Source: Mytilus galloprovincialis (taxonomy: Eukaryota; Mollusca; Bivalvia; Mytilida; Mytilidae). From it: 64,000 nucleotides of DNA. The stretch covers positions 75,943,497-76,007,496 of the forward strand of contig NC_134844.1 in assembly GCF_965363235.1 (NCBI RefSeq). Reading direction: 5' to 3'. Position 1 is the first letter of the stretch; the number at the start of each line of letters is the position of its first letter. The notes beneath the pieces were generated by a model. The model searched no databases. It saw nothing but the letters and a program-made list of their open reading frames with translations, and was not told where the DNA came from. Below are positions 17,801 through 48,544 of this stretch, one piece after another. The position numbers were made by a program, and so were the translations under genes.

Positions 17801-20800
17801 TTGTCATGCTTGTGAAGAGTTGTCTCACTGGTAATCATACCACATATTTTTTTTTATATGTCCATTCAATGTATATATGTACAACAAAATGTATCAGTAA
17901 TTTCTGCAGCAACATGAAAAATATAATAATATTACAAGTTATTGTTTTACCTTAATGACAGCACATATCTTGTCCTCGTTAAGATCTGTCGGATGGCATA
18001 TCAATCCATCTGGTATGGCAACAATATCTGTATCGTTAATGTTTAATGAGTACTGTTCAACATTTGAGCCACTCCTGCAAGAAATTATAAAATCATCAAG
18101 GTGATCTAGAGATAACTCATTAACTGATTCCCTTGTCACCTTTTTTCTCTAAACATGCTGATGTTCAGTTATTGTCATTTGTCTATGTGCTTTAGTAAGT
18201 GTTTCTCGGTTCTTGCTTTATTTTTATTTTGATTAGACTGTTGGTTTTCCAGTTTGAATGGTTTTACACTAGTCATTTTTGGGACCCTTTATCAATATCA
18301 AAATCAATCAATATTTATATTGGAAAGAGCACAATAGAGGCGTGATCCAAATCAGACAATTATAATATTAAAACAACATATAAATGAAATAAAGATGCAT
18401 GTAACAACAAGAAATAAGCCAATTCTATGTATACCATTACATTACAAGAGTGCACACGCTGAAATGTCTCGCCTTCTATACTAATCATTGATATTATGTT
18501 GATAGTCCTAAGTATAAAGCTAAGCTTTATTACAACTGTCACATAAACTTATCATTAACCAAGATAACTAAACAAAGACCAATGAACCTTGAAAAAGAGG
18601 TCCAGGTCAGATGAACCATGCCAGGCAGACAGGTACAGCTAACAATGCTTCTATACAACATATATAGTTGACACATTACTTATAGTTTAAGAAAAATAGA
18701 CCAAAACACAAAAACTTAACACTGTGCAATGAACCGTGAAAATGAGGTCACGGTTAAATAAAACCTGCTCGACTGACATAAAGATCATAAAATATTTCCA
18801 TACACCAAATATAGTTGACCTATGGCATATAGCATTAGATAAAAAGACCAAAACTCAAAAACTTAATTTTGACCACCGAACCATGAAAATATGGTCAAGG
18901 TCACATGACATCTGCCTGCTAGACATCTACACTTAACAATCATTCCATACAACAAATATAGTAGACCTATTGCATATGGTATGAGAAAAACAGACCAAAA
19001 CACAAAAATTTAACTATAACCACTGAACCATGAAAATGAGGTCAAGGTCAGAGGACACCTGCCAGTTGGACATGTACACCTTACAGTCCTTCCATACACC
19101 GAATATACTAGCCCTATTGCTTATAGTATCTGAGATATGGACTTGACCACCAAAACTTAACCTTGTTCACTGATCCATGAAATGAGGTCGAGGTCAAGTG
19201 AAAACTGTCTGACAGACACAAGGACCTTGCAAGGTACGCACATATCAAATATAGTTATCCTATTACTTATAATAAGAGAGAATTCAACAGTACAAAAAAT
19301 TTGAACTTTTTTTTCAAGTGGTCACTGAACCATGAAAATGAGGTCAAGGACATTGGACATTTGACTGACGGAAACTTCGTAACATGAAGCATCTATATAC
19401 AAAGTATGAAGCATCCAGGTCTTCCACCTTCTAAAATATAAAGCTTTTAAGAAGTGAGCTAACGCCACCGCCGGATCACTATCCCTATGTCGAGCTTTCT
19501 GCAACAAAAGTTGCAGGCTCCACAATAAACTGATATTGATACCATAAAGTTATACATCAGTATTATTTAATTTTTTCATAAATTTATTTAAAACACACAA
19601 TCACCTATATAACATGTATAAGATATATGTGTATATGCACAAACTACTGTAAAAGATTATTATCTGATGAAACAGTATGGTGGTCTCTCAAATCAAGAGC
19701 TTCTTCAATATACATACAAATAGATTTTAAATCTTTTTAAGACATAGGAAATTTAACATTTTGGTAAAATTTTCATCCAAATTATTTGAATTAATATCAT
19801 TAATTTTATATTTAGATCTAAGTTTGTTATATTGTGGACATTCAATCAAGAAATGTATCTCATTTTCAATTTTTCCTGTGCAAATTTTACAAAATCTCTT
19901 ATTAGATGGTGGGTATTTTTGGTCTTGCATACCTACCAGTTTCTATTGCTAATGAGTGTGCACTTATTCTTAATTTAGTGAGTTTTTTTCTAAGGTATTT
20001 AGGAATATTCTTGTTGTTTAAATTTAGTATAAATTTTACTAAAAAATAAAAGTTTACCACAGTTTCCATCTTTTATCTTGGTTAGTTCAAATATAATTTT
20101 ATTTTTGTAGAAATCTTCTAGTTTCTGTTTGAAATTACTTTTATAATGCTTGTTTAAGGGTATTCCAATATATTTCATTAATTCAGATAGCTTATTAGAC
20201 CATGAATTTTCTCTATTTGTGAGAGTTTTGTCACTTTATACCTTACTGTTTGGTGTGAGCCAAGGCCTTGTGTTGAAGTACTTTGACCTACATGTATAAT
20301 GGTTTACCATGTTAACTTTTACAAATTGTGACTTGGATGGAGAGTTGTCTCATTGCATTTTTTTTGGCACTCATAACACATCTTCTTATGTAAAATTAAT
20401 CATGATACATTAATTTTGTTATAAAGAAATGTAACTAGTGAACCTAACCTGGGATATAGCTACATGTATAGGTTACACTCAACCACTAAATATAATGCCA
20501 CATCCATTTTATGAACATGATGAATGCAACATGGTATTCAGAAAATTGGCTAATCTTAATTGGTCAATGTGTTGCCGAAATATTTTCTTACAAGACACTA
20601 CATCTTTTGTACATGTTGTACATGCACTCTATAGTATATGAAGGAAAAAATAATATATATATTTTGCTTAGCTCTAGTTTAAACATATTTTATTGTTCAA
20701 AATGGCCTAATGGATTAGACATAAGCCTAGCTTAGCTCAAACAAACCCGGAAGTCTTTTCAAACACCTGTGTGATGAGATACACATTATAAGTATAGAAT

Positions 20801-23800
20801 TTTTCGGCAAGGGTAGGCAGATAAGTACAATCATGGTAAGAAAAGCAACAGATTACTATTAAAATACTGTGTACATGTATGACTAATAGTCCAGTCAATC
20901 TAGCATAAATTTGACCCTTACCTTGAAATAATTGCAACAGAAGATTTTTAAGTTTAAATCTTCAGCATTATTATATACCTCAAATATACACAGAGAAAAG
21001 TTTTAAAAATGTAATTTGAGGAAAACAATAAATCATGATTTTAAAATTCCTATGGAGATTTGCATTGAAATGGGAGATAACTCTGCAAAAAAGGCAGAAA
21101 TATCAATAACAAGAATGTGTCCAAAGTACATGGATGCCCCACTCGCACTATTATTTTCCATGTTCAATGGACCTTAAAATTGGGTAAGAAATCTACTTTG
21201 GCATTAAAATTAGAAAGATCACACCATAGGGAACATATATACTAAGTTTCAAGTGGATTGGACTTCAACTTCATCAAAAACTACCATGACCAAAAACTTT
21301 AACCTGAAACTCACACTTTCATTTTCTATGTTCAGTGGACAGTAAAATTGGGGTCAAAAGTCTAATTTGGCTTTAAAATTAGGAAGATCATTTAATAATG
21401 AACATGTGTACTAAGTTTGAAGTTAATTGAACTTCAGCTTCATCAAAAACTACCTTGACCAAAAACTTTAACCTGAACATCATGAACATGCTGAAGCAGG
21501 ACGAACGGACGCACAGCGACCATAAAACATAATGCCCTTCTACTATCGTAGGTGGGGCATAAAAATTGATTCAAAGTTATAACTTTACCCCTTCTATTCA
21601 ACAGAATGTATTGATTCTTGATATTTTAGCTGTCTTTAGAGTATAACAAACAACTTTAAAGGTGTTTTCATATCATTTATCAAGCTACAACCTAGAGTTC
21701 ATAATTCATTAGTTGACCATTTATCAGATTTTTCATCTGTCAAGGTAAACAATCTCAAATTTAATAAAACTTATTAAGCATATATTCTTCTTTAAGTGGT
21801 TTAAAGTTTCTTTAAACTAGGTAGATGCTGAACAAATATAATTTACAGATATAACCAATACCAAATATTCACATTAATTTTTCAAAATGGTCACAAAGCC
21901 ATAAATTTGCAATTTCTTTAATGAAAAATGTCCATATAAAAATTAAAAATACCCATTACACTTCGGTTTTATACATTTCATGAGCAGAATATTATAGTAT
22001 AGTCAAATAAAAACTTATAACCACACCAAAGTATCATACTTTACATGAATTTTAAGAAAATCATTAAACAAGAATGTGTCCCAAGTACACGGATGCCCCA
22101 CTCGCACTATCATTTTCTATGTTCAGTGGACCGTGAAATTAGGGTCAAAGCTTTAATTTGGAATTAAAATTAGAAAGATTATATATCATAGGGAACATGT
22201 GTACTATGTTTCAAGTTGATTAGACTTCAACTTCTTCAAAAACTACCTTGACCAAAAACTTTAACCTGAAGCGGACGGACAAATGGACGCACAGACGGAC
22301 GGAAAAACGGATGGAACGACGAACGGAGGCACAGACCAGAAAACATAATGCCCCTCTACTATCGTAGGTGGGGCATAAAAACTGACAAAAAAAAAAATTT
22401 TGCGGAGTTATCTCCCTTTCCAATGTTAATTTCCATAAGAACTCAAAAATGCGGATTTTGAGTTTTCCTCAAGTTAGATTTTATGGGACTTTTTTCTGTG
22501 TATATATATTAGGGGTTGAATGCTATAGATGAGAATTAAATCATTTTCTGTTGCAATTAGTTTGAGGTTCAAACTTAGTTTGACTGGACTAAAACAAGTA
22601 TATTTACTCTTTAACATTTTTTGTGAAAAGAGCTGCTGGAACCTATAATTTTTGGACTAAAAAATACTTTCCTAATAATATTTTTTTTTATGTTGCCTAC
22701 CTATAAACTTAACTTTTAGGGTTGTGTTAACTGTAGATACATGTCGGTACCGTAATTTTTTTTAAAAAATAACATGTAAGAGCATGAAAAAAACAAGAGT
22801 GCACACACTGAAATATCTCGCCTTCTTTACTAATCATTGATATTATGTTGATAGTCCTAAGTATAAAGCTTTATTACAACTGTCACATAAACTTAACATT
22901 AACCAAGATAGCTAAACAAAGACCAATGAACCATAAAAATGAGGTCAAGGTCAGATGAACCATGCCAGGCATACATGTACAGCTAACAAAGCTTCCATAC
23001 AACAAATATAGTTGACCTACTACTTATAGTTTAAGAAAAATAGACCAAAACACAAAAACTTAACACTGTGCAATGAACCCTGCAATTGAGGTCATGTTCA
23101 AATAAAACCTGCGGGACTGACATATAGATCATAATATATCTCCATACACCAAATATAGTTGACCTTTGGCATATAATATTAGATAAAAAGACCAAAACTT
23201 AAAAACTTAACTTTGACCACTGAACCATGAAAATCCTAAGGTCAGATGACATCTGCCCGCTAGACATGTACACCTTACAATCATTCCATGCAACGAATAT
23301 AGTAGACCTATTGCATAAAGTATGAGAAAAACAGACAAAAATACAAAAACTGAACTATAACCACTGAACCATGAAAATGAGGTCAAGGTCAGATGACACC
23401 TGCCAGTTGGACATGTACACCTTCCAGTCGTTCCATACACCAAATATACTAGTCCTATTGCTTATAGTATCTGAGATATGGACTTGACCACCAAAACTTT
23501 ACCTTGTTCACTGATCCATGAAATGAGGTCGAGGTCAAGTGAAAACTGTCTGACGGGCATGAGGACCTTGCAAGGTACGCACATACCAAATATAGTTATC
23601 CTATAACTTATAATAAGAGAGAATTCAACATTACAAAAATTCTGAACTTTTTTTTCAAGTGGTCACTGAACCATGAAAATGAGGTCAAGGACATTGGACA
23701 TGAGACTGACTGCCGCCGGATCACTATCCCTGTCGAGCTTTCTGCAACAAAAGTTGCAGGCTCGACAAAAAATTAAACAAAATTTGAAACAATTTGTGTC

Positions 23801-32266: not shown

Positions 32267-34046
32267 TATATGGCTAAGTATTCAGTATAGTGTTGTTAGT
32301 GTGTGACAACATGTATGATTTTAAAAGTAGCTGTTTCAATCTTAATAACATGATTTTCTGAAAGGAGAATGATTCTAGTTTAGGGTTTTACATGTAAAAA
32401 GATAGTTATTTAGTCAGAAAACATAAAATTAGACCTAAATAGCATGTTGGACAGAGGTTATGTTGGACGTAACAGGACATTGAAAAATTGAATATTTTCC
32501 TTTTATATGAAGGCCTAGTTAATAAATATATCAATTTTTCTCTGACAGTTCATAAGATCTTCAATTAAAGTATATCATTTTGTTAAATTTTTCAAAAACT
32601 AACTTATAAGTTGGAAAAATCTTAAAATATGTCGGACAAACGGGGACATTTTTGGATGAGAATTTGTTCCATTTGCATCATTGAAAGTCAAAAACAAAAT
32701 CAAAACTATGCTGTTTATACTAATATCTACAGCTGTTGTTCCTCAGCAAGAGGTAAAATGGTTCATTATTAAATAAATGGATAAAACAAAACCATAAAAA
32801 AACTGTAGGACAAACATAGGACAGATTATATTCCCTGTCGGACAAACATAGGACAGAATTTATTAATTTACTGATTCTAATGGGAATTTAAAAATGGCCA
32901 CCTCTTAAGAAGAGACTAGGAAGGGTCTGAGAACTATTTTTTAGTTTATGTGGACTTGTTAGTTGTTAACAAGGTTCTTTATACTTTTAAAAAGCTGTTA
33001 CGTCCGACATTAGAAGATTTTGTCCTACGGTTCGTCCAACAGAAAATTAATGGACTCTTGTTACGTCCTAATTTTCAAAATTATGTCAAATTTAGACTGT
33101 CAACAGTTTAAAACCTCTTTATTTTTCATTTATATGGTAGTGTTTAAGGTTAAGTAATTGTCAAAGTAGAAGCGAAATTGATTCTGTGACTTGTGGTAGC
33201 CATTTTAGAGAATATCTTGGATGTTGGACGTAACATTTTTTTGGACAAATGTTGGATGTAACTTCCATCTCTTGGTTGGACAGAAAGAGTGTTCACCCTT
33301 TCAATGTCGTTGACCTCAAGTAAAAAGGAACAGTTGACAGCAATATCGTATGCACATCACGATTGTCGTAAAATTTGTTGTCATAAACATTAAAAAAAAC
33401 TTAAACTGAGTTGGCAATTTGCAAATGAAAATTGAAATTTTCGCCCGTAACGGTTGGACAGATTTTTCAAGAGTAAACTTTAATGACAATTCCTGAAAAA
33501 AATAAAACTTTCTGCTGTAACTTCATGATGAATTATCACATTTTAGTTAATAAGCTCAAGCCTCAAGAAATTTTGTGCATTTAATTGCCCTCTATTGTTA
33601 CATAACTTATATTTCATTTTCACATAGGAAGAAGACAGAAAATGTTAGTCCAACAACATGACCATTTAAAATTGTTTTTAATCCTTATTTTTCGATGATT
33701 TTTCATGTTTTAGTGTCCTTAACCTTGCCAACCCTATTGTTTTACCTGAAAATCCTTTTTACCTAGTTGCCATTCATACAAAAAGGTTAATAAAACAATT
33801 TTGATTTTGGGTCATTGGACCATGTCACAAAATAAGCATGCAAAAAATAGGGAATTCAACACTTCATTTATAAAATACTTTATTCAACAATAAACTTTTC
33901 ATATGAGACTGTTTATATTATCTCTTCATCATGCAGTGAATTGATTAGCTACCTGCATTAAAACTCAAAATAATTTAAAATATGAAAAAAATGCATTTTT
34001 CTGGGACACCCATTGAAACAGCACTTTACTGAATACTTAGCCATAT
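32267..34046. mobile_element. 1.78-kb TIR element with TTGGACGTAAC iterons
   Basis: The ends ATATGGCTAAGTATTCAGTA and, in reverse, ATATGGCTAAGTATTCAGTA are the same over 20 bp. The interior has many short related motifs in both orientations: GTTGGACGTAAC (32462, 33222), TTACGTCCGACA (33000), GTTCGTCCAACAG (33037), GTTACGTCC (33060), GTTGGATGTAAC (33249) and GGACAAACATAGGACAG (twice near 32815-32860). It interrupts the left arm of the 8-kb block. There is no ORF. Confidence 0.7.
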
Positions 34047-34431
34047 AATCATGTATATATGGGCGTTTTTCAATAAAAACGTATTTTCTTGTCCTAGCCG
34101 ATTTAAAAAAAAATGTGTTTGGTCTTTGCAAATAATTTTTTGTGCATCAGTACATTGAATTAGATTTAACATTTTTAAGCAAAGAAACAGTTAATTTTTT
34201 AAAGGGATTGCTAATTTATTGATTCCTGAATGGTCCAAAACAACCAAAATGGCATGTCCCTAGACCGCCTGTTCAACATTCATACTCTAAAATATCGTAA
34301 AAAAATGTAGAAATAAATGTTATTTTACTTAATATAAGTTCTTTTATAATTCAAAAGTATGTTTAGAGCCAACATATTATAATAAACAGCTTTTAACAAA
34401 GGATTTTTAATTTCAGAAGGTGTGTCCCTAA

Positions 34432-35245
34432 CAAAATGTCCACTATGAAACAAAGTCATTAAAATTTGCTAATACATTAATAAACCATTCTATAAAATCA
34501 ATGTAATTTTTGTTTGCAAGAGATATAAACATTAGGGTCTTACAAAAGAAGTGATGCTTTTATAACGACAATTAAATTGTTGGTAAAAAAAATTGAGCAC
34601 ATCAAATGGACCAGAGTGATACCGTATTTTTGTAAATGTCCACTACAAAACGGGTTAAATCTCCATCAGTATCTGGTTTTAAAATTATGAAAAAAATATC
34701 AGTGTACAGCTTAATACATGCTTTGATGAATACAATCAGTCTTGTTACTTTTGCAATAAAGGGATTGTGGGAAAAATAAAACATGTGAATACGTCCCCTA
34801 TGAAACGGTCACCTACGAAACAAGTATGGGAGAAAAACGTTTCGTAGGGGACACTACCACTACCATGCAGTCTTTATTACTCTTTTTTTCAATTATATTC
34901 GTGCAAAGCAAATACCAAGGGTTAGTTTCATGTAATTTTTATTATGTTTTTATTAACATAGAATAGGGTTGATGTCAACTATGAAACTTTTTGTCCACTA
35001 CGAAATGGATTTGTCACCTACGAAACGCATCAAAATGTCCACTACGTAACACGAGTTGTACCTTCATATGTGAATTACTGTCTAATCTTTATCGATAAAA
35101 AATGGTTCTCCAATTCAGATAAAAATAGATTTTCCTAGTATATAAAGTAAACAAACTTGAATGTCTATAGGAAACATTTAAAATTGCAAACATGTGTGGT
35201 TAGAAGCAGTTTCGTAGGGGACTTTTGTCCCCTACGAAACAGTAC
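34432..35245. repeat. Iteron cluster GTCCCCTACGAAAC
   Basis: About eleven copies of GTC(CC/CA/AC)CTACGAAAC-like 14-mers occur here: near 34434, 34637, 34791, 34806, 34838 (reverse), 34972, 34990, 35010, 35036, 35210 (reverse) and 35228. Variants include GTCAACTATGAAAC and GTCCACTACGTAAC. The last pair is a perfect head-to-head palindrome, GTTTCGTAGGGGAC-TTTT-GTCCCCTACGAAAC. No ORF overlaps in a meaningful way. Confidence 0.8.
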
Positions 35246-35313
35246 TCAAATTATGAAAAAAATATCATTTTAAGGAGTATTTAAGATTGCACTTTTTGTT
35301 TACAAACATGTCC

Positions 35314-35465
35314 ATAATAGAGGGGGAGGACAGGGGTAAGGGAGACAGGGAGAAAGGGGGTAGGAGAAAGGAGAAAGGGGGTGGGAGAAAGGAGAAAGGG
35401 GGTAGGAGAAAGGAGAGGAAGGCTGGGAGAAAGGAGAAAAAGTTGGAGAAAGGAGAAAAAATAAA
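35314..35465. repeat. Purine-only minisatellite, left
   Basis: Units of GGGGGTAGGAGAAAGGAGAAA, about 20-21 bp, are repeated several times on the plus strand. They produce accidental reading frames on both strands. A related array lies at 39932-40014. Confidence 0.9.
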
Positions 35466-35695
35466 ATATCTCTCCTTTTAAGAAATGATCTAATATTTCA
35501 AGAAAAAATATCAAAACATTATCTTTTAATCGAATTTCAATTTAAAAGTGATACCGATAGCTTAAATGATCAATCTAGTATGAATTAGACGTTCCATTAG
35601 ATTAAATCCGGATTTTAACTCAACGTTTGATTACGTTTTTTTGACTTCGTTATTTACAATTTTACGTTGAACGTTATCATTTCCGGTTTTCTATA

Positions 35696-37286
35696 ATGGA
35701 AACAATTAGTGCTGGGGTCCATATATTTGGACGGATGCAAGGAAAGGCCTTGGATAATCATTTCATTTATCTGGAAATATCGGCGGAAAATGATTTCGCG
35801 TCATTCCTGAAAACCTTAAGGTTGAATAATGGATTTAGCGAAAGGTGCGCGAAGTTTGGAATAACTAACTTTGAGACAGAGCTGTCCATTTTAGAAAAAA
35901 AAGACCGTAAACTTGTTGTTATAAACAACAATTCATCATTCAAGCATGCTGTTAAACTGCTTCTTAAGGAAGAGGCTGATCTTCATGGTAATTAAACTTA
36001 ATTAATTTATGAAATCACACATTATGACATCTGTATTTCTTTTTTCGTACTATGTCTATGATCTACTATGAAATTGAGAAGACCATTGTCAGTTAATTGC
36101 CTAGTTTGTAAAACTGGGGCTGTTTTAACAGAGAGAGATTCCTTTACAGTTTTGGCAAATAGCCTTTAGATATCACATTCGGTAAACGACCAATTGACAA
36201 AGGTTTAATTTGATTTCAATTACTTGTGGGTCGGTCGACACACTTATAGTTAGTTATGTTACATGTTTTCTCATTGGTTCAAATGAAATTTTTATTTACG
36301 ACAGCAAAACAGCAAAATTACAGCTTATTTAGTCTCCATTTTTTTCTGTATCCTTTAAACATCAAACACATGACTGCCCTTTGATTCTTTTCTAACCTGT
36401 TTTTATATTATACCGTTTTTGTCCTTATGTATGGCGAACATCCCCTCTATATTCAATGTAGATCGAATATTCTGACACACGTGCTTTCCAAAACCTCCTT
36501 TTCTAGTATGCACCGGGAATAATATATTTGATACTGTTCTAGACTGTTTTGTTAAAAAAAACCAACTATTTTAACACAGGGCGTGAAAAAGAGAGCATGT
36601 TTTGCGGTACACTCACACAAGTTTATGACACAGTCGCTTGAGTTTTAGTGACAAAAATATAAAAAAGAAATAAAAAAAAAAATAAAATCGTGTGATATCT
36701 AAGTCATCTATGTAATAATATAGGGGCATATCACACGATTTTTTTTTATTTCTTTTTAACATTTTTGTCACTAAATGTGATTCGACGCTTGGGGCGGTCT
36801 TGACCACGTTCTAGGATATGAATGATTCGTTCATTGATAAAGACTGTACATCGACTGGCAAGATGAAGAACAGGAATAAAAACCCTGTTAATTGATAATT
36901 TGTATTTTGTGCGATTTTGTCCCATGTTCATCTTCTCCATATCCCTTACTTCCACTACAGTAGCATACAGAATTGAAAGAATGTTCATCAGAAAAGAACT
37001 TGTGGCAATGATTGAAAGGGAATGGTTTTTCAATCACCCCAAAATAAATCTTCTGTGACAAGAACTTATTTCACATTGTGAAACATGCAAACAATGCTGT
37101 TTAAGTATATATGTTCTAACGGTACTGTCGCAATCTGAGTATGACTATGATTCCGAGATTTGTAGTATAGTTCTTTTATGTAAAACTGCTTTTAAAAGGA
37201 TGCATGACGAAAATACAAAAATTTGCAAGGAAATTGAAAACATGCAAAATATGGTGGAGCAAATTTTTGATGAACAACATCACTGA
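35696..37286 (+). CDS. Two-exon gene, about 171 aa, unrecognised
   Basis: Exon 1 runs from the ATG at 35696 to about 35987 (donor CATG|GTAATT, phase 1). It encodes METISAGVHIFGRMQGKALD, then an evenly mixed hydrophobic/charged sequence that looks like a folded domain (ISAENDFASFLKTL, RKLVVINNNSSFKHAVKLLL). A second open stretch, ending at the TGA at 37284-37286, encodes EYDYDSEICSIVLLCKTAFK and an amphipathic end NTKICKEIENMQNMVEQIF. An acceptor at 37062/37063 (TTCTGTGACAAG) would keep phase; this junction is the weak point. ATTTCCGG, an ETS-like site, lies at about 35679-35686, and AATAAA at about 37392-37398. It sits inside the inverted-repeat block, so it may be a captured or element-borne gene. 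No family recognised. Confidence 0.5.
36650..36776. repeat. Foldback hairpin in the intron of the 171-aa gene
   Basis: TTAGTGACAAAAATATAAAA, AAAATCGTGTGATAT and the complementary ATATCACACGATTTT, AACATTTTTGTCACTAAA form a long imperfect palindrome centred near 36705. Confidence 0.8.
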
Positions 37287-37392
37287 TTCATCACTTTTGA
37301 TGAAATGAATGACCTAATTCATTGCTCGTAATGTATATGCGTTATTTTTGTGTGATTATGATTTGTGATATATTAAATTGCTATATTTGAAC

Positions 37393-38336
37393 AATAAAGT
37401 TTGTACTTTAACAGGTTGCAAGTAAGCATTCACATCACTGCTATAGCAAATCATTTTAGTGGTGTTCTCCTTACGAAAGTTCCTATAAAGCCGGCGTCTA
37501 TTAGCTCGTGACCTACTGTGCTAGGGTCACGAGATCAGCTCCTGATTTGTTCTGTGACACATTTAGAAGATAAATCATGCATATTAGTCTCCGGCAGTTC
37601 ATTGGCTACAGTAAAACACAAATCAATCTCAATGAACATGTACAAAATTAGTGAACTTCTATAATTATTGCCAGGCACAATTATCAACTGTACCCTTGAG
37701 AACATTGAGGTACAGATAAGTTGAATGTGGCCTTGTATTTTCAGAAAAGAAGACGTTCACAATTATAATACGCAAACATGAAAGAATCCTTCCATTCAAT
37801 GTGATTCGATCGACGTTTTTGTACTGTATCAAACAACAAATTAAAGTTATATATATTTGCGTATTCCTTGTGTCGATGATAATTATAAATGCATGTATAT
37901 ATAATTATGTATAAAGTTGTACTTTAAAAATAAAAATATCTATCTATTTATATAAACGTATACAAAAAAGACAAAATCAAAAACCGACTGCATGTTGGAT
38001 CGTAAACCGTAAACAGTAAATTCTAAGCTCTAATATTATTAACATGATTTGGTTCCAGACACTAAGTTTCGACACTATTTATAAATTAGTTTTTCTGCCC
38101 GTCTGTTGTACCAATATCTTGTCTGAGTTGTATTAATTTGTAGCAACTTTTAATCAAATATAAGTGAAAATGTGCATGATGTTAACCACCATGTTCAGTG
38201 TCAGAAGTTCCAGAATGGTCAAGACAAAATTTGTTCACGGCTATCCAGTTTCACTAAAAATTAATACATAGGATTGACAGAAGATGACACCAATTTAAAC
38301 TACACCTATAGCTATGTTTTTTTTTTCTGACACACG
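37393..38336. other. Non-coding stretch
   Basis: The poly(A) signal of the upstream gene lies at the left edge. CTCGTGACC..GGTCACGAG near 37504-37534 is a small hairpin. I see nothing else. Confidence 0.4.
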
Positions 38337-38421
38337 GGCATATCATATAAAGATACCAGAGGAACATTCAAACTCATAAGTCAAAAATAAACTTACAATG
38401 TCATGTCTAAAAAAGAAACAG

Positions 38422-39620
38422 CAGGGCCGTAACTACATTGAGGCAAATGAGGCAAATGCCTCATGTTAGAAATTTCAAAAAAAAAACTTAAACAAAAGAT
38501 TGTTTTAATATCAAATTGTTTTCACGGAAAGTGTCTAGCAAGAAGCAAGTTCTCCTCACTCTCTGGTGTCGCCCCTGCATGTTTTTCGTGATCCATGTTT
38601 CTATTTTACTTTTAGTTTTCAGAGTTGATGGTCTATTGTTTGTACTTCTATGTGACTGTCCGTACGGTGACCTATAGTTGTTAATGTCTGTGTCATTTTG
38701 GTCTTTTGTGGATAGTTGTCTCATTGGCAATCATACCACATCTTCTTTTTTATATTGTCTTTTGTTCATTTGTTTTCCTACTTTATGACTATAGTCCGAG
38801 TGATGATTTTTATTTGTAAACGTGTGGTTTTGCAATGTTGCATGCCCACCGATGTCCAGATATTGTGCGAGAAAATATTTTACGAATATACGATGCTACA
38901 CAGACAAAAATTGTCGTTTATGCATGGAGAACTGAACTTTAATATCAAAGAATACAAAACTGGCTTTCTTGGGGAGGGGGAGGGGTAGACAAAACTAGAA
39001 AGCTGACATGGTTTAAATTAAAGTAAGGTCACCAATTTCCAGGATTCAATTAATTTGGAAAAAAAAAACAATAATGTATTGCCATATGACCTTTTTCCAT
39101 TGAAGGGTTTAACTTGCATTAAGTGATGTTCAGACCCTCTAACAGAAAATAAAGGAATATGGAGTAAATGTGCACGAAACATAATCGCACAGAGTCAATG
39201 CATAGAAAAAATTCTAAAAGACAATGGTCAAAGTTGCTGGAGAGTCTTTAACAATAAAAGAATCAATAATACCGTAAAACATGGTTAAGATGGTCCCTAG
39301 TGTCGACTGAAGCAGTACTAATACTTAAAGTACAAGCTGTCACTATATTTAAATCTAGTCATAAAAACAATAACCATAGACTAAGCACAATACAATTAAG
39401 ACAAATACAGACAGACAGATCCTGTATTAATGATTACGAGAATTTCGATTTTTGCTTTATCCTACATATCGGTCTTTTAATGTTTTCCATAAAACCTTAA
39501 AGTCTTAAATCACAATGAATCTATGTTCTTGCTTTGAGACCAGATTATTGTCGGAAAATAGCAAATTTTCTCGGCGAATATATTTTGCCTCACGATTAGA
39601 AGAGGCTAGTTACGGCCCTG
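38422..39620. mobile_element. 1.2-kb element with CAGGGCCGTAACTA ends
   Basis: CAGGGCCGTAACTA starts the element and its complement TAGTTACGGCCCTG ends it. AACAG is present immediately outside both ends (38417-38421 and 39621-39625), a probable 5-bp target duplication. The element interrupts a recognisable dispersed repeat, so the junctions are certain. The termini look like hAT ends, but hAT elements make 8-bp duplications, so the class stays open. Adjacent GAGGCAAATGAGGCAAATGC follows the left TIR. An R1 fragment (38650-38757) is nested. Confidence 0.75.
38650..38757 (-). repeat. R1 repeat fragment
   Basis: CCGTACGGTGACCTATAGTT, TCATTTTGGTC and TGTCTCATTGGCAATCATAC are R1 landmarks in reverse. 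Confidence 0.75.
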
Positions 39621-39931
39621 AACAGACAAACAAAAGTACACAAAACACAACGCAGAAATACACGGAAAATGAAGTGATAGCAGGTGCTCCGGAAGGGTAA
39701 GATACCAGACGAGGGCGTACAATTAATAAACCAAGACATTTACAAGATTTTTATTGAAAACAATTAGTGTCGTTTCCCTTACATGAGAAATGTTTGCCGC
39801 CTTTAATTTCTTATTGTTATAATGATCAATCATGAATTGTTTTTGTGCTAATAAATTGTGGCTTCTGTACAAACAAAAACGACAGATACAGCTTTATTTT
39901 AATTTATCTCAAAAGGAGATGTTTTATTCTA

Positions 39932-40014
39932 ATGGGAGAAAGGAGAACGGGGGTAGGAGAAAGGAGAAGAGGGGTAGGAGAAAGGAGAAGAGGGGTGGGA
40001 GAAGGGAGAAGGGT
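39932..40014. repeat. Purine-only minisatellite, right
   Basis: Four to five units of GGGGTAGGAGAAAGGAGAAG on the plus strand. It lies in the right arm of the 8-kb inverted block, yet has the same strand polarity as the left array at 35314-35465. Confidence 0.9.
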
Positions 40015-40293
40015 ACCCCCCTGTCCTCCCCCTCATAATAGAGGTATTCAAAATAACTCTTTAAATTCATGAAATTAAATTTTAGACAAGTTGATTTTCC
40101 ATTTTTTTTAGGTCTGAAATATATGCTTTTATTGAAAAACGCCCATATAGGAATAGAATAGAATGGATAGTCGACTTCCTATGGATAGAAACAAGTGCCT
40201 GTGGTAAACATGGTAAATTTTTACTAAAATGGTTACATGATCATCACATTCAGTACAAATTTCAACCTGAATACTAGTCCATATAATTATGTG

Positions 40294-40364
40294 GTCTGGC
40301 AAGGCTATTTTATTTTTTTCTGGGACGCCTTAATTAGGAAGGAAATAAAATAGCCTTGCCAGAC
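40294..40364. repeat. Hairpin with ~21-bp arms
   Basis: GTCTGGCAAGGCTATTTTAT at 40294 is matched by ATAAAATAGCCTTGCCAGAC ending at 40364, with a loop of about 30 bases. Confidence 0.9.
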
Positions 40365-40431
40365 GTCATAGTTATTTGGACTTAACCTCCATACAGTCAT
40401 ACCTGTGCATCTTGAAAAGTTTAGAGTAGGG

Positions 40432-40480
40432 ATGGACCTAGATAAAGAAAACTTATTAAGTTTTCTTTATCTAGGTCCAT
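40432..40480. repeat. Perfect 23-bp hairpin with a 3-base loop
   Basis: ATGGACCTAGATAAAGAAAA, then CTT, is followed by the loop ATT and the exact complement ending ATCTAGGTCCAT. Confidence 0.95.
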
Positions 40481-40548
40481 TAATAAATGCATTTTAAGTT
40501 TCTGAATATTGAAAACTTTAGTATATTTTGCTATTTATTTTTATATGC

Positions 40549-42780
40549 TCGTTTACGGGACATATCATGGTAAACATGTCTGTTTGTCAGTTGTCCTTTT
40601 GTCCATTAGTCATCAACAGGTCCTACAAAAACACTTTAACCAATTTGCTTGAAACTTTGGTGAATTGTTTATATAATATATCTATTAAAGTGAGCTCCCT
40701 TTCATTTTTTTTATATTTTAGTTTTCAAGTTTCTGTGTTAAGGTTTTTTTCATTCTAAAAGGGGGGATTGTCAAGTTTTTGGACAATAAATAAAAAACAC
40801 TTTCACCAATTGGCAAGAAACTTGGGAGAATTATTTATATCTATTGACATTCATCAGTCAGGGTACTACTTGTACAAGTGCTTGAAGAAGTAAAAAAATA
40901 TATACACATATAAGTAAATGAATAATGTTTGAATAACCTCCACTGAATTTTCTCAAAAATTTACTTGTATAAGTAAATTTTTCTTACAATCCCACAAAAG
41001 TCCTCAACTTTCGAGATGTAAATTCATGCCTTTAATGATTTTTCTTATGTTTGCTCAATTTTTTTTATTAGAGTTCAATGTTTCATCTCATTAATTCAAC
41101 AAAGAAACTGATTGCGCAGAGATCTTAAGTATTTGTGCAAGGCCTACAAAAATTGCTCCTTGGGGGCTTGTAAATGAGAAGTGTTCTGAAGATAACAGAC
41201 AAATGAGTTTTCATTGTCCATGAAATTACACTTAAATGATAAGTAAAGACATCTGCAAAGGGCAGATAATTTAAAATTCTATTAGAGCAAAGAAATCATA
41301 AGACTTCAATAAAAGAAGATAGGATGACTTTTTTACTTCTACAAGTAAAAAAATTTGAATGTCTAAAGCCTTACCTGATAGCTCGAACGGACGCCTAACG
41401 GATAACTTTTTTTCAATCTGTTCATGTCCGTTGGACATCTGTTCTTATCCGTTAGACGTCTTTTCATATCCGTTGCATGTCCGTTAGGCGTACGTTTTAT
41501 CCGTCAACGTCCATTCTGTCCGGTGGAGAATTTTGAGCATGTTCAAAACTTTGAACAGATGTCCAACGGATAAAATGTCCGTTGAACATCCGTTAGGTGT
41601 CCATTTTGTACGGTACTCAACCGTTTCGTTTCCTTTTTGTATCTGTTACGTGTCCATTATACATCCATTGGAGGTCTGGAAGATAGATTCACCAACAGAC
41701 TTCTACCCGACATTTAACGGATAAAACAGATGATGAAGGATCTGAAACAGATAAATGCCAATTGAAATTTTCGCGTCGGAAATGCCAATTATTGGTATGT
41801 CAGATTTCTTAAGGTTCATGAATTCTTATTATTCATAATCAATCTTAGGGCATTATGCACGTCTTCACATTCAAGCAGCTCTTATTCAGGCCAGATACTG
41901 CCCTTTGGTGGCATTTTGAAGAACAAACCAAAACCAGTTACACAGAAACATTTTGAATATTTATGCGATTTACATGTATTATTATTGTCGCCTTAAATTT
42001 TTCCTTATATCTTGTTCATCCGTTTTATCCAGAACGCTTCCGTTATGTGTCTGTTTTATGCAGTACTCGTTTGTTGGATGATACATCCGATTTGTCCATA
42101 AAGTTTCCGTTTCTCGTACGTTGCATATTCGGTGTGTGTTCGTTATGCATTCGTTACACATCCATTTTATTCGGTCAGTACATCAACGGACTCCCAACGG
42201 ATACCAATTTTGTCAACGGACAACTTTTATTTTCATCTGTTCGGGGTCTGTTCGTGCTATCCTTCAATGTGTGACCGAGGCTTTAGGGACATAACTCAGC
42301 CAATATTTTTTTTTACCTATACAAGTAAATGAAATTCACTTGTATAAGTATCCTACAAATTTACTTATATAAGTATATTAATATTACTTCTTGAAGTAAT
42401 TAAAAAAAACTTGTACAAGTAGTACCCCTGACTGTTCATCATGTTCATAAGCTTACTTTTGATATTTATAAATTTAAGATTATGGGTTTTTTATTCATTA
42501 AAAAAGGGATTTTCCCGTTTTTGGACAATTTCATATAGTCTTAAATGGTTTTAGCAGTTTTCATGATGCTTTTTATCAATTTTAAATTTATCTTTTTCGA
42601 GTTATGGGGCTTTAGCATGTTTAGCCATGAAAAAATAGAGGGATTTTCCATTTTCAGACAAATTTCTCAAAAATGCTTTTAGCAGTATTCATGGTATTCA
42701 TGAAACTTTGGAGAATTGTTTATATCTATTGACGTAAGCTCCCTTACACTTTTATTCTTCCGCTCCATATTATCAACATC
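40549..42780 (+). repeat. R4-like repeat, split by the 1.58-kb iteron element
   Basis: CGTTTACGGGACATATCATG, TTTGTCAGTTGTCCTTTTGT and blocks with TTTTTGGACAAT and GGGAGAATTATTTATATCTA come before the insertion. Matching blocks (TTTTTGGACAATTTC, GGAGAATTGTTTATATCTAT) continue after 42440. Confidence 0.6.
40855..42434. mobile_element. 1.58-kb CAGTCAGGG-ended element with two kinds of iterons
   Basis: The left end CAGTCAGGGTACTACTTGTA and the reversed right end CAGTCAGGGGTACTACTTGT begin the TIRs. TTCAT flanks both ends (40850-40854 and 42435-42439), a clean 5-bp target duplication. The terminal regions repeat the palindromes ACTTGTACAAGT, ACTTATATAAGT and ACTTGTATAAGT. The interior, 41386-42226, carries at least fifteen copies of AACGGA/TCCGTT in both orientations, often as GTCCGTTAGGCGT or AACGGATAAAA. 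There is no ORF of substance. Confidence 0.85.
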
Positions 42781-44080
42781 AACCAAGTTTTCCCCCCACA
42801 AAATGGTGGGGGTGGGGACCTAGCTTCAATATTGCAGAGTGGAACTGTTGAGTCTGCAAAACCTACGTGGACATTGGGTCATTGTTGCTGCATCACTCAT
42901 TTGTTTCACCTATAATGTATCATACTAAAACATGCTCCCAAAAACACATTCTGGATGTGTAGAACCTGCCATCAGTCTTCACATAATTTAAAATCTGTAT
43001 GGAAAATTGTATCATTAATGATTTCAGTCTTTACGATAAAAGTCTTCAAGTTGTATTTAAATACTTTTTGCTAGTCCCAGCATGCATTCATTGAAGTGCA
43101 TAAACATAACTATAAAGCAACGTAAACATAGACACAAATATTATTGTTACGTTCATGATTTATTGTTTCCTTATAACCATGAATTCCATTGGTGTCCAAT
43201 TTGAAAATATTTTTTTTATTAAGAATTGAATGCTTTTTTTTTGTAACTTCATTGGGGTGTAAAAGCATTGACCAAAGTACATTTTGTATGAAGCGCAGAA
43301 GATTCTAAAAATGTGTGCATAGTCAATGTTTTTACAACCCTATGAAGTTACAAAAAGAAGCATTCAATACTTATAATTACATTTTTTTAGCTATGATCAT
43401 GAAAAAATGAATTATATATTTTTTATTTATTTAATTCACATGTGCACTTTATTCATGTTATTGTGGGACCACGTGTTATCATGAATGAAGTCAGATCAGG
43501 ATATCAACTAGGCTAATGACTGTCAAATATACCATGGGGAATCCTGGAACTCCTTAATAGTATGAAGTAGTCTTCTGACTATACCTTTGTAATAGTAAAC
43601 CCAAGAATATGTAGTTCTGAGAACTGCTGTTATACCATATTCATAACAATACACCTTATTGCTTTCTATCCACATTACCGGGCTTCCATTCAAATTTTGA
43701 CGTCATAAGAGGAAATGTCTGATGCAACAAACATTGACAAAGAGTATCTATTATAGTGATTGTTGTATGACATCATAAGTTCAAGTGTGGCATATATATT
43801 CTTGGGTTAGGTGTTGCAGATTCCCTAATACATGAAAACAGAGATAAGGACTCAATATTCTCGCAATGAAATAACCATAAATTAACTTTTTAGGGAGAAT
43901 ACTTCTATTAATATCAGCTCTTGTACCATGTTTATATATACATAAATATTAAACTCCTTAGCATGATGTTTCAAATATTATATGTCACTTTATTAGTGAA
44001 GAACTGAATTGCAATCAGTTAAAAAGTTTTAATAAGACCACTGTTATGCCTTTAGTAATTGTAGATTTCTTATATTTCAG
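42781..44080. other. Upstream region and 5' leader intron of the TRIM-like gene
   Basis: Apart from the foldback element above, ACCCAAGAATAT (43599) and ATATTCTTGGGT (43797) form a weak inverted pair. The first exon of the TRIM-like gene must lie somewhere upstream, because its coding exon begins at a splice acceptor. Confidence 0.4.
43213..43374. repeat. Inverted-repeat element (foldback MITE)
   Basis: ATTGAATGCTTTTTTTTTGT, AACTTCATTGGGGTGTAAAA and GCATTGAC are matched in reverse by GTCAATG, TTTTTACAACCCTATGAAGTT and GAAGCATTCAAT. A degraded copy of one arm lies at 63440-63530. Confidence 0.8.
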
Positions 44081-44081
44081 G

Positions 44082-45755
44082 ATGGCATCATCATTTGATA
44101 AATTATGTGGTCCTTGTGAAGCAAGACATACAACAGAAAAAGCAGCTGTCTGGTGTATTGATTGTGATGATGGACTATGCCTCCCTTGCTTGGAACACCA
44201 TAAAGTCAGCAAAGCTAGCAATAAACACCAGACCATACCAGTTAGTAAGTACGCAGAAGTGGAATCAGTTTCAGCATTGATAAAGCTGGATTGCGAAGAA
44301 CATAATCAAAAGTTAACTTTTTTTTGTCAAGATCACTTTTCCACTGCCTGTGCTTTATGTATACCAGAAAAACATAAACAATGTTCAAGTATAAAACCCA
44401 TCGAACAACTTGCTCATAATGCAAAAACGTCAACAGAGCTGTTTGACTTAGAGAAAGGACTTAAGGAGCTTTCTAATACCCTTGCTGAACTTAATACTGA
44501 CCGACAGCGAAATATCAAAGAGATAAGAGACCAAAGAAAAAACATTTTGGCGGAAATTAAATCTTTAAGAAAACAGATAGATACGTATCTAGATGTGTTG
44601 GAATCTGATTTGTTAAAGCAGTTAGAATGTTTAAGTGACCAAAATATATCCGAAATAGACAAGTTACTTTCAAAGTTAAAGGACAAAGAGACACAAATTA
44701 AAAGTCTTGGAGAGTCAATTCATCAAATCAAAGAAACATTATCTGATGTTCAAGTCTTTTTAGCAACAAAGAGTGTTGGTGAAAAGTTGCACGAAGAACA
44801 AGAATGGATTTCAGCTCTATGTGACCAGGAGGGAGCTAAAGAGTCAACTCTAGAACTTTCTACTGATTCACAACTCACACATTTGTTATCTGACTTAAAA
44901 CATTTTGGCGTGATAAAAGTTGTCCGTAAGACATGTCAGATTAAAATTGGAGCATGGGAGCAACAAAGAGCACAGCTTATTGTACCAATGCCTGCTGCAG
45001 CGAGAGATATTGACGAGACAAAACTGGAACTGCTTCACACGATAAAGTTTGACAATGATTTGTGTATTCAAGATTGTGTTGTTGTCAATGATGGAAGAAT
45101 GATTTTTACCCTTGGAAAAACGGGACAGGTATTTGTGTATTCAAGTGAAGGGCATTTATTGAAGTCAATCAATGTTTGTAAGTCTCCCTTTGGACTGGCT
45201 GTAATCAGTACTAGTACTGTAGCTGTAACATGTCTTTACAACCAAACAATAAACATTGTGAATATTGATGATGGTGTTGTGAAGCAGAAGATAAAAGTCG
45301 GGAAATATTGCTTTGGTTTGTCTTACCACAACACGAAACTGTATGTTATTGTTAAAGGGACAGGAATAGTTGAGTTTGATTTAGGTGGAAATCTCATTAG
45401 AACAATATCAGTAGATGTTGCAAGTGATGATTGTTACTTAACTTCGTATAAAGACAGATTTTGTTACACATGTTATAAGCAATTCATAGCATGCTGTGAT
45501 AGTAATGGTAGGGAAATCTGGAGACAAGGCATTGCTGATTCTGGTGTAGCAGCAGACAATTATGGAAATTATTTTGCAGCACATTACGAGGAACATACAT
45601 TGAATATAATATCTGGCGATGGTAAAAAAACAAAACAACTTCTGACAAGCAATGAGGGTCTCAATCATCCTCAAGGAATCTTTTTCGACAGCAACAACAA
45701 CACATTACTTGTAGCTAATCGATACAAGAAGGCAATGCTTTATCGCATCATTTGA
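44082..45755 (+). CDS. TRIM-like protein: two B-boxes, coiled coil, NHL-type propeller (557 aa)
   Basis: The start is set by a splice acceptor, TTCTTATATTTCAG, directly before G-ATG, so a 5' leader intron is likely; the upstream ATG at 44046 would fall in that intron. Residues 9-50 form a B-box-like zinc site (C9, C12, C25, C28, C33, C36, H39/H40, H49). Residues 71-101 form a second (C71, H74, C82, D84/H85, C90, C93, H98). A coiled coil spans about 115-240, rich in L, E, K and Q. From about 325 to the end, short repeats such as GRMIFTLGKTGQVFVYSSEG and HPQGIFFDSNNNTLLVANRY fit an NHL/six-bladed propeller like that of TRIM2/3/71. No RING precedes the B-boxes, so ubiquitin ligase activity is doubtful. 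Such RING-less genes are greatly expanded in bivalves. One uninterrupted coding exon. Confidence 0.92.
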   Translation: MASSFDKLCGPCEARHTTEKAAVWCIDCDDGLCLPCLEHHKVSKASNKHQTIPVSKYAEVESVSALIKLDCEEHNQKLTFFCQDHFSTACALCIPEKHKQCSSIKPIEQLAHNAKTSTELFDLEKGLKELSNTLAELNTDRQRNIKEIRDQRKNILAEIKSLRKQIDTYLDVLESDLLKQLECLSDQNISEIDKLLSKLKDKETQIKSLGESIHQIKETLSDVQVFLATKSVGEKLHEEQEWISALCDQEGAKESTLELSTDSQLTHLLSDLKHFGVIKVVRKTCQIKIGAWEQQRAQLIVPMPAAARDIDETKLELLHTIKFDNDLCIQDCVVVNDGRMIFTLGKTGQVFVYSSEGHLLKSINVCKSPFGLAVISTSTVAVTCLYNQTINIVNIDDGVVKQKIKVGKYCFGLSYHNTKLYVIVKGTGIVEFDLGGNLIRTISVDVASDDCYLTSYKDRFCYTCYKQFIACCDSNGREIWRQGIADSGVAADNYGNYFAAHYEEHTLNIISGDGKKTKQLLTSNEGLNHPQGIFFDSNNNTLLVANRYKKAMLYRII

Positions 45756-47047
45756 ACTGTTGAAATTATTTAAATGTTCATAACATATATGTAAAATTGT
45801 AAAAGTCTCCACTTCATACTGTATCACTTACTTATTCAAGGTTTTCCCCATTGACATAAGGAAATGTCAATTACTGGTTCGTCAGTAATGCTCCAATACA
45901 GATTTTTTGAGAAAATACAAAACCTAGTACAAAATGTACAAAAATTTAACATGTTTACGTGCTAAGACAACAACTGAGTCCATACCATAGATGTTAGCCC
46001 CTATTGTTTTCTATTCCATTTGCTGTCATGCATCATTGCTAAAAGTAATTTATGAAGAAAACATTCATCATTCATGTTATTTTTCAACGTCTGTGCAGCA
46101 GTCCATTCATCCATCTGTCTTGCTTCAGTTTAAAGTTTTTTGTCATGGTAATTTTTGAAAAGTTGAAATCCAATCAACTTGTAACTTAGTACACTGGTTT
46201 TCCCATTGGAGTTAGACTTGTATTTCTATGTGTTTAGATAGTACTGCATGCTCATTTCGTCATTCAATTGTTTATGTATTATAGTTTAACTTCAGGTTAC
46301 ACATTTATGTGTCTGAGCTTTATCAAGAAATCTTGAATCTTGGGACTATTATACTAGTACTATATAATTATATTACTAATTTACTAGTATAATAGTCCCA
46401 GATTACATTAAGTGCTTTTAAATAATTTTCACCTGTTTTCACATTACAAAGTATATCATGGTTAATTAATATCAATCACATAACATCTTTAAGAAAAGAA
46501 TTTTATGATAGTATTTCAGTAGGTTGTAAAAATTTTTAAAAGTTAAGCACATGTGCCAAATTTAATTTACTTTTTATTCAAGAAAACCTAGAGGTATTGA
46601 AAAATATTGCTTTTTATAGTAACAAATGTTTTGAACTGAGAAAACTATCAATATAGTATAGATATTGTTTTATTAAAGATGTTTAGAATATTTGCCTGTT
46701 AATAATAAATATATTGTTATGCCTTTTTATGTATATATGGCTCTGATTTGGTTGTAGATTAACATCTAAGAAATAGTAGTTAAATTCAGGTTTATGATTT
46801 GTGTTATTATTGTAACAATTATAAAAATCATTGTAATAAATTGCTTTGCTCTTCATGGGCCCTTTAATTGGAATAAAAATATCTGATCATAACTTTTATT
46901 GGAGTAACAGATTTATTTGAAAATTTTCTGTATTCTAATTTTATGATGACTAAAACATTGTAAAAGACATTGTGTTATTGATAATGACTTTTGGGATTTT
47001 TAACCGGATTTTTGTGACAAAAATGTTGGTTATTGATTTGGTGACAT
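45756..47047 (+). other. 3' flank of the TRIM-like gene
   Basis: Several AATAAA-type signals lie within about 1 kb (for example near 46704 and 46835). A perfect hairpin is at 46341-46400. There is no further gene. Confidence 0.45.
46341..46400. repeat. Perfect 19-bp hairpin in the TRIM-like 3' flank
   Basis: TGGGACTATTATACTAGTA and its exact complement TACTAGTATAATAGTCCCA are separated by 22 AT-rich bases. It could be a tiny MITE or, if transcribed, a stable 3' UTR stem. Confidence 0.9.
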
Positions 47048-47109
47048 CCCATTAGTCTGACAACCATTATTCCGCAGCCCATTACTCCGACAGCCCATTA
47101 TTCCGACAA
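47048..47109 (+). repeat. Tandem CCCATTATTCCGACAG motif, four copies
   Basis: The units CCCATTAGTCTGACAA, CCATTATTCCGCAG, CCCATTACTCCGACAG and CCCATTATTCCGACAA follow one another directly. Confidence 0.9.
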
Positions 47110-47541
47110 TGCGTTTTTCTTATGTGTATGGGTATATTTTCGTTAAAAAGACCAACTCCGTTATCTGGGCCTTTTTCAAAAAATGTGGATTTTCTTGTAC
47201 AATCAATATTTCTAAAAAAGTGTAAATATGTTTATCCAATTTTTAGATACACCATTTAGTTTTTGGTGTGTGTAACAAGTTCCAGAAAATTCAATATGAA
47301 ATTTAGCTACAGATATTGCTTCCAGTGGGTTTCAAAGGGTCCAAAAACACCAAAATTGCTTGTACCAAATTGAAAAACTAGTCTTTTTTAAATGCTGGTT
47401 TTAATACCCAGCGGAAATTATTATTTTTCTTTTGTTATTATAAATATATAGGTATCACTGCAGGTATGTATACACAAATACAGGGAATTATTAGATTTTA
47501 TTAGCATTTTTTTTTACTTTTCATTTCGTACTTAAAAAAAT

Positions 47542-48130
47542 GTCAACTACATAACGCAAATGAAATAATGTTGCCAACAAACAACTGATTATATCCCTTG
47601 TAACTAAGGAAGTGTTCTCTACTTACTCTTCACCCTCTGATGACGTGCTTAAAGTTACAGGATGACATCATTGATTCATTTCATTATAGATTAGTTTTGG
47701 TGAGTACAAATTACTCCGTAATTTTATTCTATGTCAACTTTGTTAGGCAAAAACATTGATAAATTTTGGCATAAATATTTTTTTTTTACATAAATCATTC
47801 AAAGTCTATAATACTCACTCTAATTCAATAAAAACCATTTATCTGGTAGTATTAGGGTCAAGAAAAACCTCCAAAAACCACAAATAGGTCAACTACATAA
47901 CGGTCAACTACATAACGCAGTGAATCGCTATGTAGTTGACAAAAAGCGTTATGTAGTTGACAATGCTGAATTAAATTCACTTTAAAATATGTTTCTAAAA
48001 AGTGTAATTTTAACCATGTTAACTGTTTTGAAAAAAGTGTGATGATTTTTATGGAAATATATATCAAGCAAAATGTAAATATTATTAAAAAAAATTTAGG
48101 GACCGAAACTAAATCCGTTATGTAGTTGAC
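47542..48130. repeat. Iteron cluster GTCAACTACATAACG
   Basis: Exact or near-exact 15-mers lie at 47542-47556, 47888-47902 and 47903-47917 (forward, the last two abutting). Others are at 47926-47940, 47947-47961 and 48116-48130 (reverse). The sequence is close to the 34432-35245 iteron variants GTCAACTATGAAAC and GTCCACTACGTAAC. Element ends are not identified; the block may start with the CCGACAG array at 47048. Confidence 0.85.
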
Positions 48131-48544
48131 ATATGTCCCATACTTGTTTCTATGTTATTTTTTAAAATATTTTTGTAGTAGCATTTAAGATTGCATATTT
48201 TTATTTCAGGTTGTATTGTTGTTAAACTATTCAATTTCATATATTAAAGTTGAAAATTGAATATTTTTTTGTATTGTTATTTCACAACTGAAATATCCAC
48301 ATTTTTTGAAAATGACCCATCTATGATATGTGTGCTTGTACGTCTTGATTACAATTATTCTTTCCATACGGGATATTTGTATATTGGAGTTGATACACAT
48401 GCTCAGTCCTTATCATCGTTCAACTTTCGATTTACGTGTCTAGGTACTTTATTTATCTTTGTATTTCGTTGTTTGTGTGTCCACTGTCAGTCTGTGCTGT
48501 TCTAGTTCGCTAGTTTTTGCATATGTGTCTTGATGTTCCTTCTT

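Follow-up and report, generated by a model that had tools for sequence, protein, structure and literature searches.

Three loci in a 64,000-nucleotide stretch of the Mytilus galloprovincialis genome (C7:75943497-76007496 of 1.38 Gb; hereafter the window, meaning the whole stretch) carry clusters of short repeated sites, or iterons, in both orientations. We consider it likely that these loci are miniature inverted-repeat transposable element (MITE)-like members of one group of cut-and-paste transposons, and that the iterons are transposase-binding sites that have diverged together with the transposase. With less assurance, we think it probable that a single plan, whose five or more transposase sites keep their places and orientations, underwent concerted recoding repeatedly within this one genome as the transposase diverged. 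An earlier note on the window had proposed one class of element in which the array of sites tracks a changing DNA-binding protein. Our analysis supports this proposal, binding by the transposase being the part that we infer.

Three families of bounded elements

Sites were counted on both strands and compared with 30 dinucleotide shuffles per locus or element. GTTACGTCCAAC occurs at 6 sites in locus 1 (≤2 mismatches; shuffle mean, 0.07), GTCCCCTACGAAAC at 11 sites in locus 2 (≤3 mismatches; shuffle mean, 0.03), and GTCAACTACATAAC at 6 sites in locus 3 (≤3 mismatches; shuffle mean, 0.10). The clusters are real, and all three counts lie far above the shuffles. Comparison of copies placed the loci in three families, numbered as the loci, with the following features (slots are the positions shared between elements that are compared in the next section):

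32272..34042, no strand assigned: Family 1 non-autonomous element, 1771 bp, from copy comparison
32462..32473, minus strand: Family 1 iteron GTTACGTCCAAC
32997..33071, plus strand: Family 1 iterons at 32997 (GTTACGTCCGAC), 33029 (GGTTCGTCCAAC) and 33060 (GTTACGTCCTAA)
33223..33262, minus strand: Family 1 iterons at 33223 and 33251
34061..35323, no strand assigned: Family 2 non-autonomous element with its 3' end lost, from copy comparison
34438..35050: Family 2 iterons (14 bp) at 34438+, 34638+, 34793+, 34808+, 34839-, 34974+, 34993+, 35013+ and 35037+
35209..35240: Family 2 3' head-to-head iteron pair, 35209- and 35227+
47167..48318, no strand assigned: Family 3 non-autonomous element, 1152 bp, from copy comparison
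47542..47555, plus strand: Family 3 iteron, slot A
47888..47916, plus strand: Family 3 head-to-tail iteron pair, slots B1 and B2, 15-bp period
47927..47961, minus strand: Family 3 iterons that face this pair, at 47927 (slot C) and 47948
48117..48130, minus strand: Family 3 iteron, slot Z, 188 bp from the right end

The ends could be defined for all three families, which are bounded, dispersed DNA transposons with inverted ends and 4-bp target-site duplications (TSDs). The window copy of Family 1 has inverted ends beginning GGCTAAGTATTCAGTA and is flanked by ATAT at 32268-32271 and 34043-34046; five of the eight copies fetched align over the full length, with 98.7-98.8% identity. The window copy of Family 2 is preceded directly by ATAT and starts with the left terminal inverted repeat (TIR) GGGCGTTTTTCAATAAAAACG; at its 3' end it lacks about 91 bp, right TIR included, and a GGAGAAA satellite follows instead. 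Complete copies elsewhere measure 1310-1355 bp, those with insertions reaching 2319 and 2461 bp, and the window iteron at 35209- corresponds to a slot 191 bp from the right end of the complete copy L009. The Family 3 element ends in GGGCCTTTTTCAAAAAATGTGG and GGGTCATTTTCAAAAAATGTGG and has the TSD ATCT on both sides. Matching 4-bp TSDs flank 8/8, 12/12 and 12/12 complete copies scored of Families 1, 2 and 3, respectively; for Family 2, 12 of 16 fetched copies were scored, L010, L017, L020 and L024 being excluded as partial or diverged. The TSDs include ATAT, ATAA and AGAT, and the ends begin with GGG or GGC. At ≤3 mismatches, the Family 1 end pattern has 85 matches in the genome and the Family 3-type end pattern 837, compared with none for either reversed control. 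The end regions of Families 2 and 3 are 58% identical (E values of 6e-9 and 2e-6), and loci 2 and 3 are, judged by this alignment, homologous.

For the genome-wide motif searches, too, the reversed pattern served as control. The Family 2 iteron GTCNNCTACGAAAC was found 3127 times (control, 54), a total that, as a rough estimate, would imply some 300-500 copies; GTCAACTACATAACG was found 260 times (control, 8), and TGTTGGACGTAAC 82 times (control, 37), a weak excess if nothing but the counts is considered. Head-to-tail pairs whose sites are separated by a single base (15-bp period) number 166 for the Family 2 type and 264 for a wider type, compared with 0 in both controls. Base composition therefore does not explain the motifs, and in the copies examined they lie within elements with defined ends and TSDs. 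As bounded here, the elements run from 32272 to 34042, from 34061 to 35323 and from 47167 to 48318, and the second and third exceed the spans given earlier. Two motifs in locus 2 had been read as intermediates linking it to locus 3; they are slot-specific variants common to most Family 2 copies, not transitional forms, and one of them, GTCCACTACGTAAC, occupies its slot in 10 of 12 copies scored. The resemblance claimed for the locus 1 motif holds in part: the motif is 12 bp long and only partly alike, and locus 1 is a more distant branch.

Enlarged copies (L012, L013, L051, L060 and L062) were considered as coding partners and rejected, since their extra DNA brings no long transposase frame and the longest frame listed in these copies is 156 codons; we read them as non-autonomous copies with insertions. 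In the window, the Family 1 and Family 2 copies lie 18 bp apart (34043-34060), each adjoining an ATAT. Tandem arrays of a 21-bp unit beginning GGAGAAAGG occupy 35340-35460 and 39934-40013, the first of them beginning directly where the 3' end of the Family 2 copy is lost. A 16-bp tandem repeat, GACAGCCCATTATTCC, lies at 47043-47108, shortly outside the left end of the Family 3 copy.

Shared slots and lineage-specific site codes

Iterons are 12-14 bp long, and each lineage with defined ends carries its own version. Two complete coding elements, L066 (5570 bp) and L067 (5244 bp), have the TSD ATAA and ends like those of Family 3, and they share five iteron slots with Families 2 and 3. Family 2 is represented here by the complete copy L009, as the window copy lacks the right end:

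Slot A, plus strand, from the left end: Family 2, 375; Family 3, 376; L067, 397; L066, 377
Head-to-tail pair B1/B2, plus strand, from the left end: Family 2, 724/739; Family 3, 722/737; L067, 751/766; L066, 725/740
Facing slot C, minus strand, from the left end: Family 2, 770; Family 3, 761; L067, 790; L066, 764
Slot Z, minus strand, from the right end: Family 2, 191 bp; Family 3, 188 bp; L067, 188 bp; L066, 190 bp

A MAFFT alignment of Families 2 and 3 puts the five slots in the same columns, with 592 of 1137 aligned bases identical, although the alignment may itself lean on the iterons. The slots are filled by GTCC(A/C)CTACGAAAC in Family 2, by GTCAACTACATAAC and in one case GTCAACTACATAGC in Family 3, by GTCA(C/T)TTGTGTTAC in L067 and, more loosely, by variants of GTCCATTATGTTAC in L066. 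Mean mismatches are 1.10 between slots within an element and 5.57 between elements at the same slot, a contrast that none of 20,000 within-slot permutations reached; without L066 the values are 0.53 and 5.53, and 12 of 20,000 permutations reached the contrast. This test covers four elements and their five common slots, which were chosen after the positions had been seen, and leaves out the other iterons. As the slots are shared across elements, the array seems older than the split of the lineages, and as every element fills them with a version of its own, the sites appear to have changed together. The concerted diversification proposed earlier is borne out in this form: positions are kept while the sequence changes as a set.

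The head-to-tail pair of the L066/L067 type has 38 matches in the genome at ≤2 mismatches, compared with 0 for the control, and 18 of them make up a single tandem array of 15-bp units (C1:8030300-8031123). Outside this array, 11 of the 20 pairs are exact, and all 11 are situated upstream of L067-lineage transposases (about 80-100% identity), ten at 201-486 bp from the matched part of the transposase and one at 6.7 kb. The remaining nine have two mismatches; seven of them lie 535-672 bp upstream of transposases with 51-60% identity to L067, namely the L066 lineage and its near kin. Seen from the protein, 18 of the 19 listed loci with at least 51% identity to L067 (best segment) have a tandem pair upstream, and the exception, C2:57236613, was matched only from residue 192. 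No such pair lies upstream of the four loci with 39-42% identity (C4:37003706, C3:63052884, C11:26787734 and the Family 3 parent described below), the last of which carries its own iteron type. The locus list comprises matches among the 40 of 469 candidates from the L067 protein search that were scored. Within it, the iteron version follows the transposase lineage.

These data bear on two other explanations of the iterons. A transcription factor or chromatin protein of the host could be what reads them, for example in a promoter or silencer module, and most iterons of L066 and L067 are indeed found in the 1 kb or so that precedes the gene, in promoter territory. All copies share the same host factors, however, and yet the site version follows the transposase lineage within one genome; moreover, iterons are also present at the 3' end, and Family 3 copies that have no gene keep sites at both ends. 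We regard a host factor as unlikely. Recent local duplication or gene conversion could also make the iterons of an element alike with no protein being tracked. Similarity within elements is high, and the iteron-like array on C1 demonstrates that local multiplication is possible. Against this, slot positions and orientations are common to elements with differing iterons, so that the array seems older than the divergence, and 14-bp sites that are scattered, in both orientations and set in dissimilar flanks would offer little for conversion to act on. This second explanation seems to us very unlikely. The C1 array has the unit GTCTATTGTTTTACT and is perhaps a satellite grown from a transposon iteron.

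Coding elements and their transposases

The earlier note had called for an autonomous partner encoding a DNA-binding domain. Coding partners were found for loci 1 and 3, the gene being intact in the first case and damaged in the second, and none for locus 2 among the places listed; a recognised DNA-binding domain did not emerge from Pfam.

Family 1 end pairs lie 11.35 kb apart at two places in the genome. One of these elements (L063 with L064) has the TSD ATAT, ends that are both 85-87% identical to those of the window copy, and an uninterrupted 1,328-codon frame; at the second place, an equally long open frame shows 100% identity (rounded) over the 1,073 residues searched. The first contains 6 iterons (shuffle mean, 0.57; maximum, 3), five at one end and one at the other. 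Its transposase frame ends in about 16 in-frame 45-bp repeats (L063 7089-7808; 15 residues, containing LTEVHPEVDLMQPDP). A genome search with this transposase gave 59 matches, with 43 of 525 candidates scored, many of them in open frames of about 660-1710 codons with 29-38% identity. Two groups of relatives (C6:17990182, 902 codons; C6:37216374, 878 codons) comprise several open copies each; their search scores are almost equal, as would be expected if the copies were nearly identical and had moved recently.

The parent of Family 3 lies at C6:70870170-70876047 and measures 5.88 kb; frame changes and stop codons interrupt its gene. The L067 protein search matched C6:70872155-70874767, beyond a Family 3 end at C6:70870170 and four 5' iterons of the Family 3 type; the first 780 bp are known from pattern matches alone, and the left TSD lies outside the sequence read. 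Two exact iterons are present on the 3' side, identity to the window copy is 93% over the right 338 bp, and the transposase piece is 44% identical to L067. Sites of the own type number 10 in L067 (shuffle mean, 0.43), 8 in L066 (0.63) and 6 in the Family 3 parent minus its first 780 bp (0.33). In four coding elements and one outside relative, own-type iterons flank the gene on both sides.

The outside relative, L071 (JAAEPJ010000558.1), was the only one found in a search of genome contigs; three scans of viral contigs found none, nor did PHROGs and PDB profile searches. The 4-kb contig that carries it is filed under bacteria and most likely represents animal DNA that contaminates a metagenome bin. 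The element is about 3.5 kb long with ends GGGCAATTCCAT, and its 705-codon frame has no OTU domain and is flanked on both sides by iterons GTACGTCCAACAC, eight in all (shuffle mean, 0.03). A single-sequence structure model of the L071 protein (pLDDT 36) was too poor to use.

Alignment of the transposases identified three invariant aspartates, 79-94 and 40-41 residues apart, in all six proteins, L071 included. The five proteins of this genome have a conserved set of cysteines before the aspartates, and four of the five contain an OTU-like stretch (DGNCLP ... NHF). The Pfam OTU match is weak and confined to one protein (E = 0.046, below the cut-off), and a single-protein PDB search gave a weak OTU match (4bop, E = 0.2) and three others that we take as chance. 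No Pfam or NCBIfam family scored above the cut-off, and no relevant transposase family was matched for the core; matches below the cut-off (interleukin-2, pilin, secretin and others) were set aside. In the transposase tree, Family 3, L066 and L067 form one clade (support 99/99), the Family 1 transposase belongs to another, and L065 and L071 are long branches.

Given its other ends, other site layout and transposase from a different clade, Family 1 might be thought to represent a separate superfamily, the families having acquired similar arrays independently. We consider this highly improbable: the transposases align with the same invariant residues, the ends of Families 2 and 3 are homologous, and Family 3, L066 and L067 share GGG(T/C)C ends. 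Locus 1 has the strategy and the protein family in common with the others, and lacks their slot plan.

That last point is one of several that weigh against our reading of a single group with co-diverging sites: the Family 1 array lacks the slot plan. The site excess of its 11.35-kb parent is the weakest among the coding elements, and one end has a single site. The L066 slots are only moderately alike. Two of the 20 tandem pairs, C6:82438893 and C14:70274111, are near no listed transposase. The Family 2 parent was not found: the places listed for the Family 2 iteron and for the tandem pairs (100 of 166 and 100 of 264) were compared with the loci listed from searches with the Family 1 and L067 transposases and with the Family 3 transposase piece (73 matches for the last), and no listed place lies near a listed transposase locus. 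Six transposase lineages of this genome were read, among many listed, and two of them, L065 and L068, have neither established ends nor an array within 10 kb. The TSD of L071 is mismatched (AAAT and TTCT). Lastly, the Pfam scans of the five proteins matched no DNA-binding domain.

L068 has a tandem array with a unit of about 410 bp after the transposase frame (6900-9500); most units contain two ATGTCCAAC motifs 41 bp apart, a core that is also present in the Family 1 and L071 iterons. Elsewhere in the window, a repeat of about 147 bp with a similar consensus forms three arrays (18566-19205, 22921-23537 and 61632-62247), and positions 44046-45755 hold a single-frame open reading frame of 569 codons that encodes a B-box zinc finger (PF22586, E = 3.1e-6). 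Scanning the window for Rfam families and for tRNAs gave no matches.

Relation to known transposons and implications

Among known superfamilies, the group resembles Sola as described in its AT-rich 4-bp TSDs and size, and its three aspartates would fit a DDD triad. Sola elements are described as having a DDD transposase, a 4-bp TSD, ends that vary, TIRs of 11-1124 bp, and a size of mostly 2-9 kb, with some over 15 kb (PMC10741241); for amoebal Sola2, AT-rich TSDs (AWWT; ATAT, AAAT, ATTT) and TIRs of 12, 13 or 21 bp are given (PMC3627910). Bivalves carry Sola1, of mean length 5445 bp, and Sola2 (PMC10294476). In our elements, 4-bp TSDs flank Family 1, 2 and 3 copies, L066, L067 and the 11.35-kb element, TIRs are at least 12 bp long (12 in L071), and the coding elements measure about 3.5 (L071), 5.2, 5.6, 5.9 and 11.35 kb. 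These descriptions mention neither an OTU domain nor a subterminal iteron array for Sola. Among the titles listed in literature searches, none concerned OTU-bearing Sola-like transposases or Sola subterminal arrays, which is not proof of their absence from print. We call the group Sola-like as a likeness by description, not as a filing.

Ginger1, as far as its description extends, shares the 4-bp TSD and an OTU domain, located at the C-terminus of some transposases; its TSDs are CCGG or CCGT, its ends TGTNR, and its core a Gypsy-type integrase (PMC2836005). AT-rich TSDs, GGG/GGC ends and the lack of a Pfam integrase core rule out membership. KolobokP, with a DDD/E transposase and a 4-bp TSD, is likewise reported from mussels, and the Kolobok TSD is described as TTAA-specific (PMC9587614). 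Despite the common mussel occurrence and TSD length, and possibly the same type of transposase, TTAA is found in none of the 32 TSDs of complete copies scored, and Kolobok membership is ruled out. Academ-type transposases carry an XPG nuclease. Our Pfam scans of the five proteins matched no nuclease domain and, at E ≤ 1, no integrase.

The inferred binding of transposase to the iterons would be in line with Galileo (THAP) and Herves (hAT), whose transposases are described as binding a short motif that recurs near the ends, with motifs differing between hAT elements (PMC3688188, PMC3143072). Those elements belong to other superfamilies; here, several lineages in one genome have the same slots recoded in concert. 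The transposases that would move the group are large proteins with three invariant aspartates and, in most cases, an OTU-like cysteine-protease domain after them. The encoded protein would bind the iterons, probably cooperatively at the tandem and facing pairs, and so pair the ends; as the 5' array sits just upstream of the gene, it may also repress its own promoter. After a change in the DNA-binding part, mobility would be kept only where the entire array of an element changes with it, and the array would thus be recoded in concert at fixed places. An element-encoded protein that reads all sites is the simplest cause of the shared change.

Binding of subterminal motifs by transposases is already known, as are differences in these motifs from one family to another. 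What is seen here is a matched set in one genome, a shared architecture with different site codes tied to protein lineages. The site code offers a way of matching a non-autonomous family with its parent. Several of the lineages have open coding copies, and the joint change of a protein and its dispersed sites becomes a testable question. If our reading is true, each code would define a private transposition network, coding and non-autonomous copies of several codes coexisting in this mussel, and the lineages would form a natural series from which to work out how a 14-bp site is read by a large DDD-OTU transposase.

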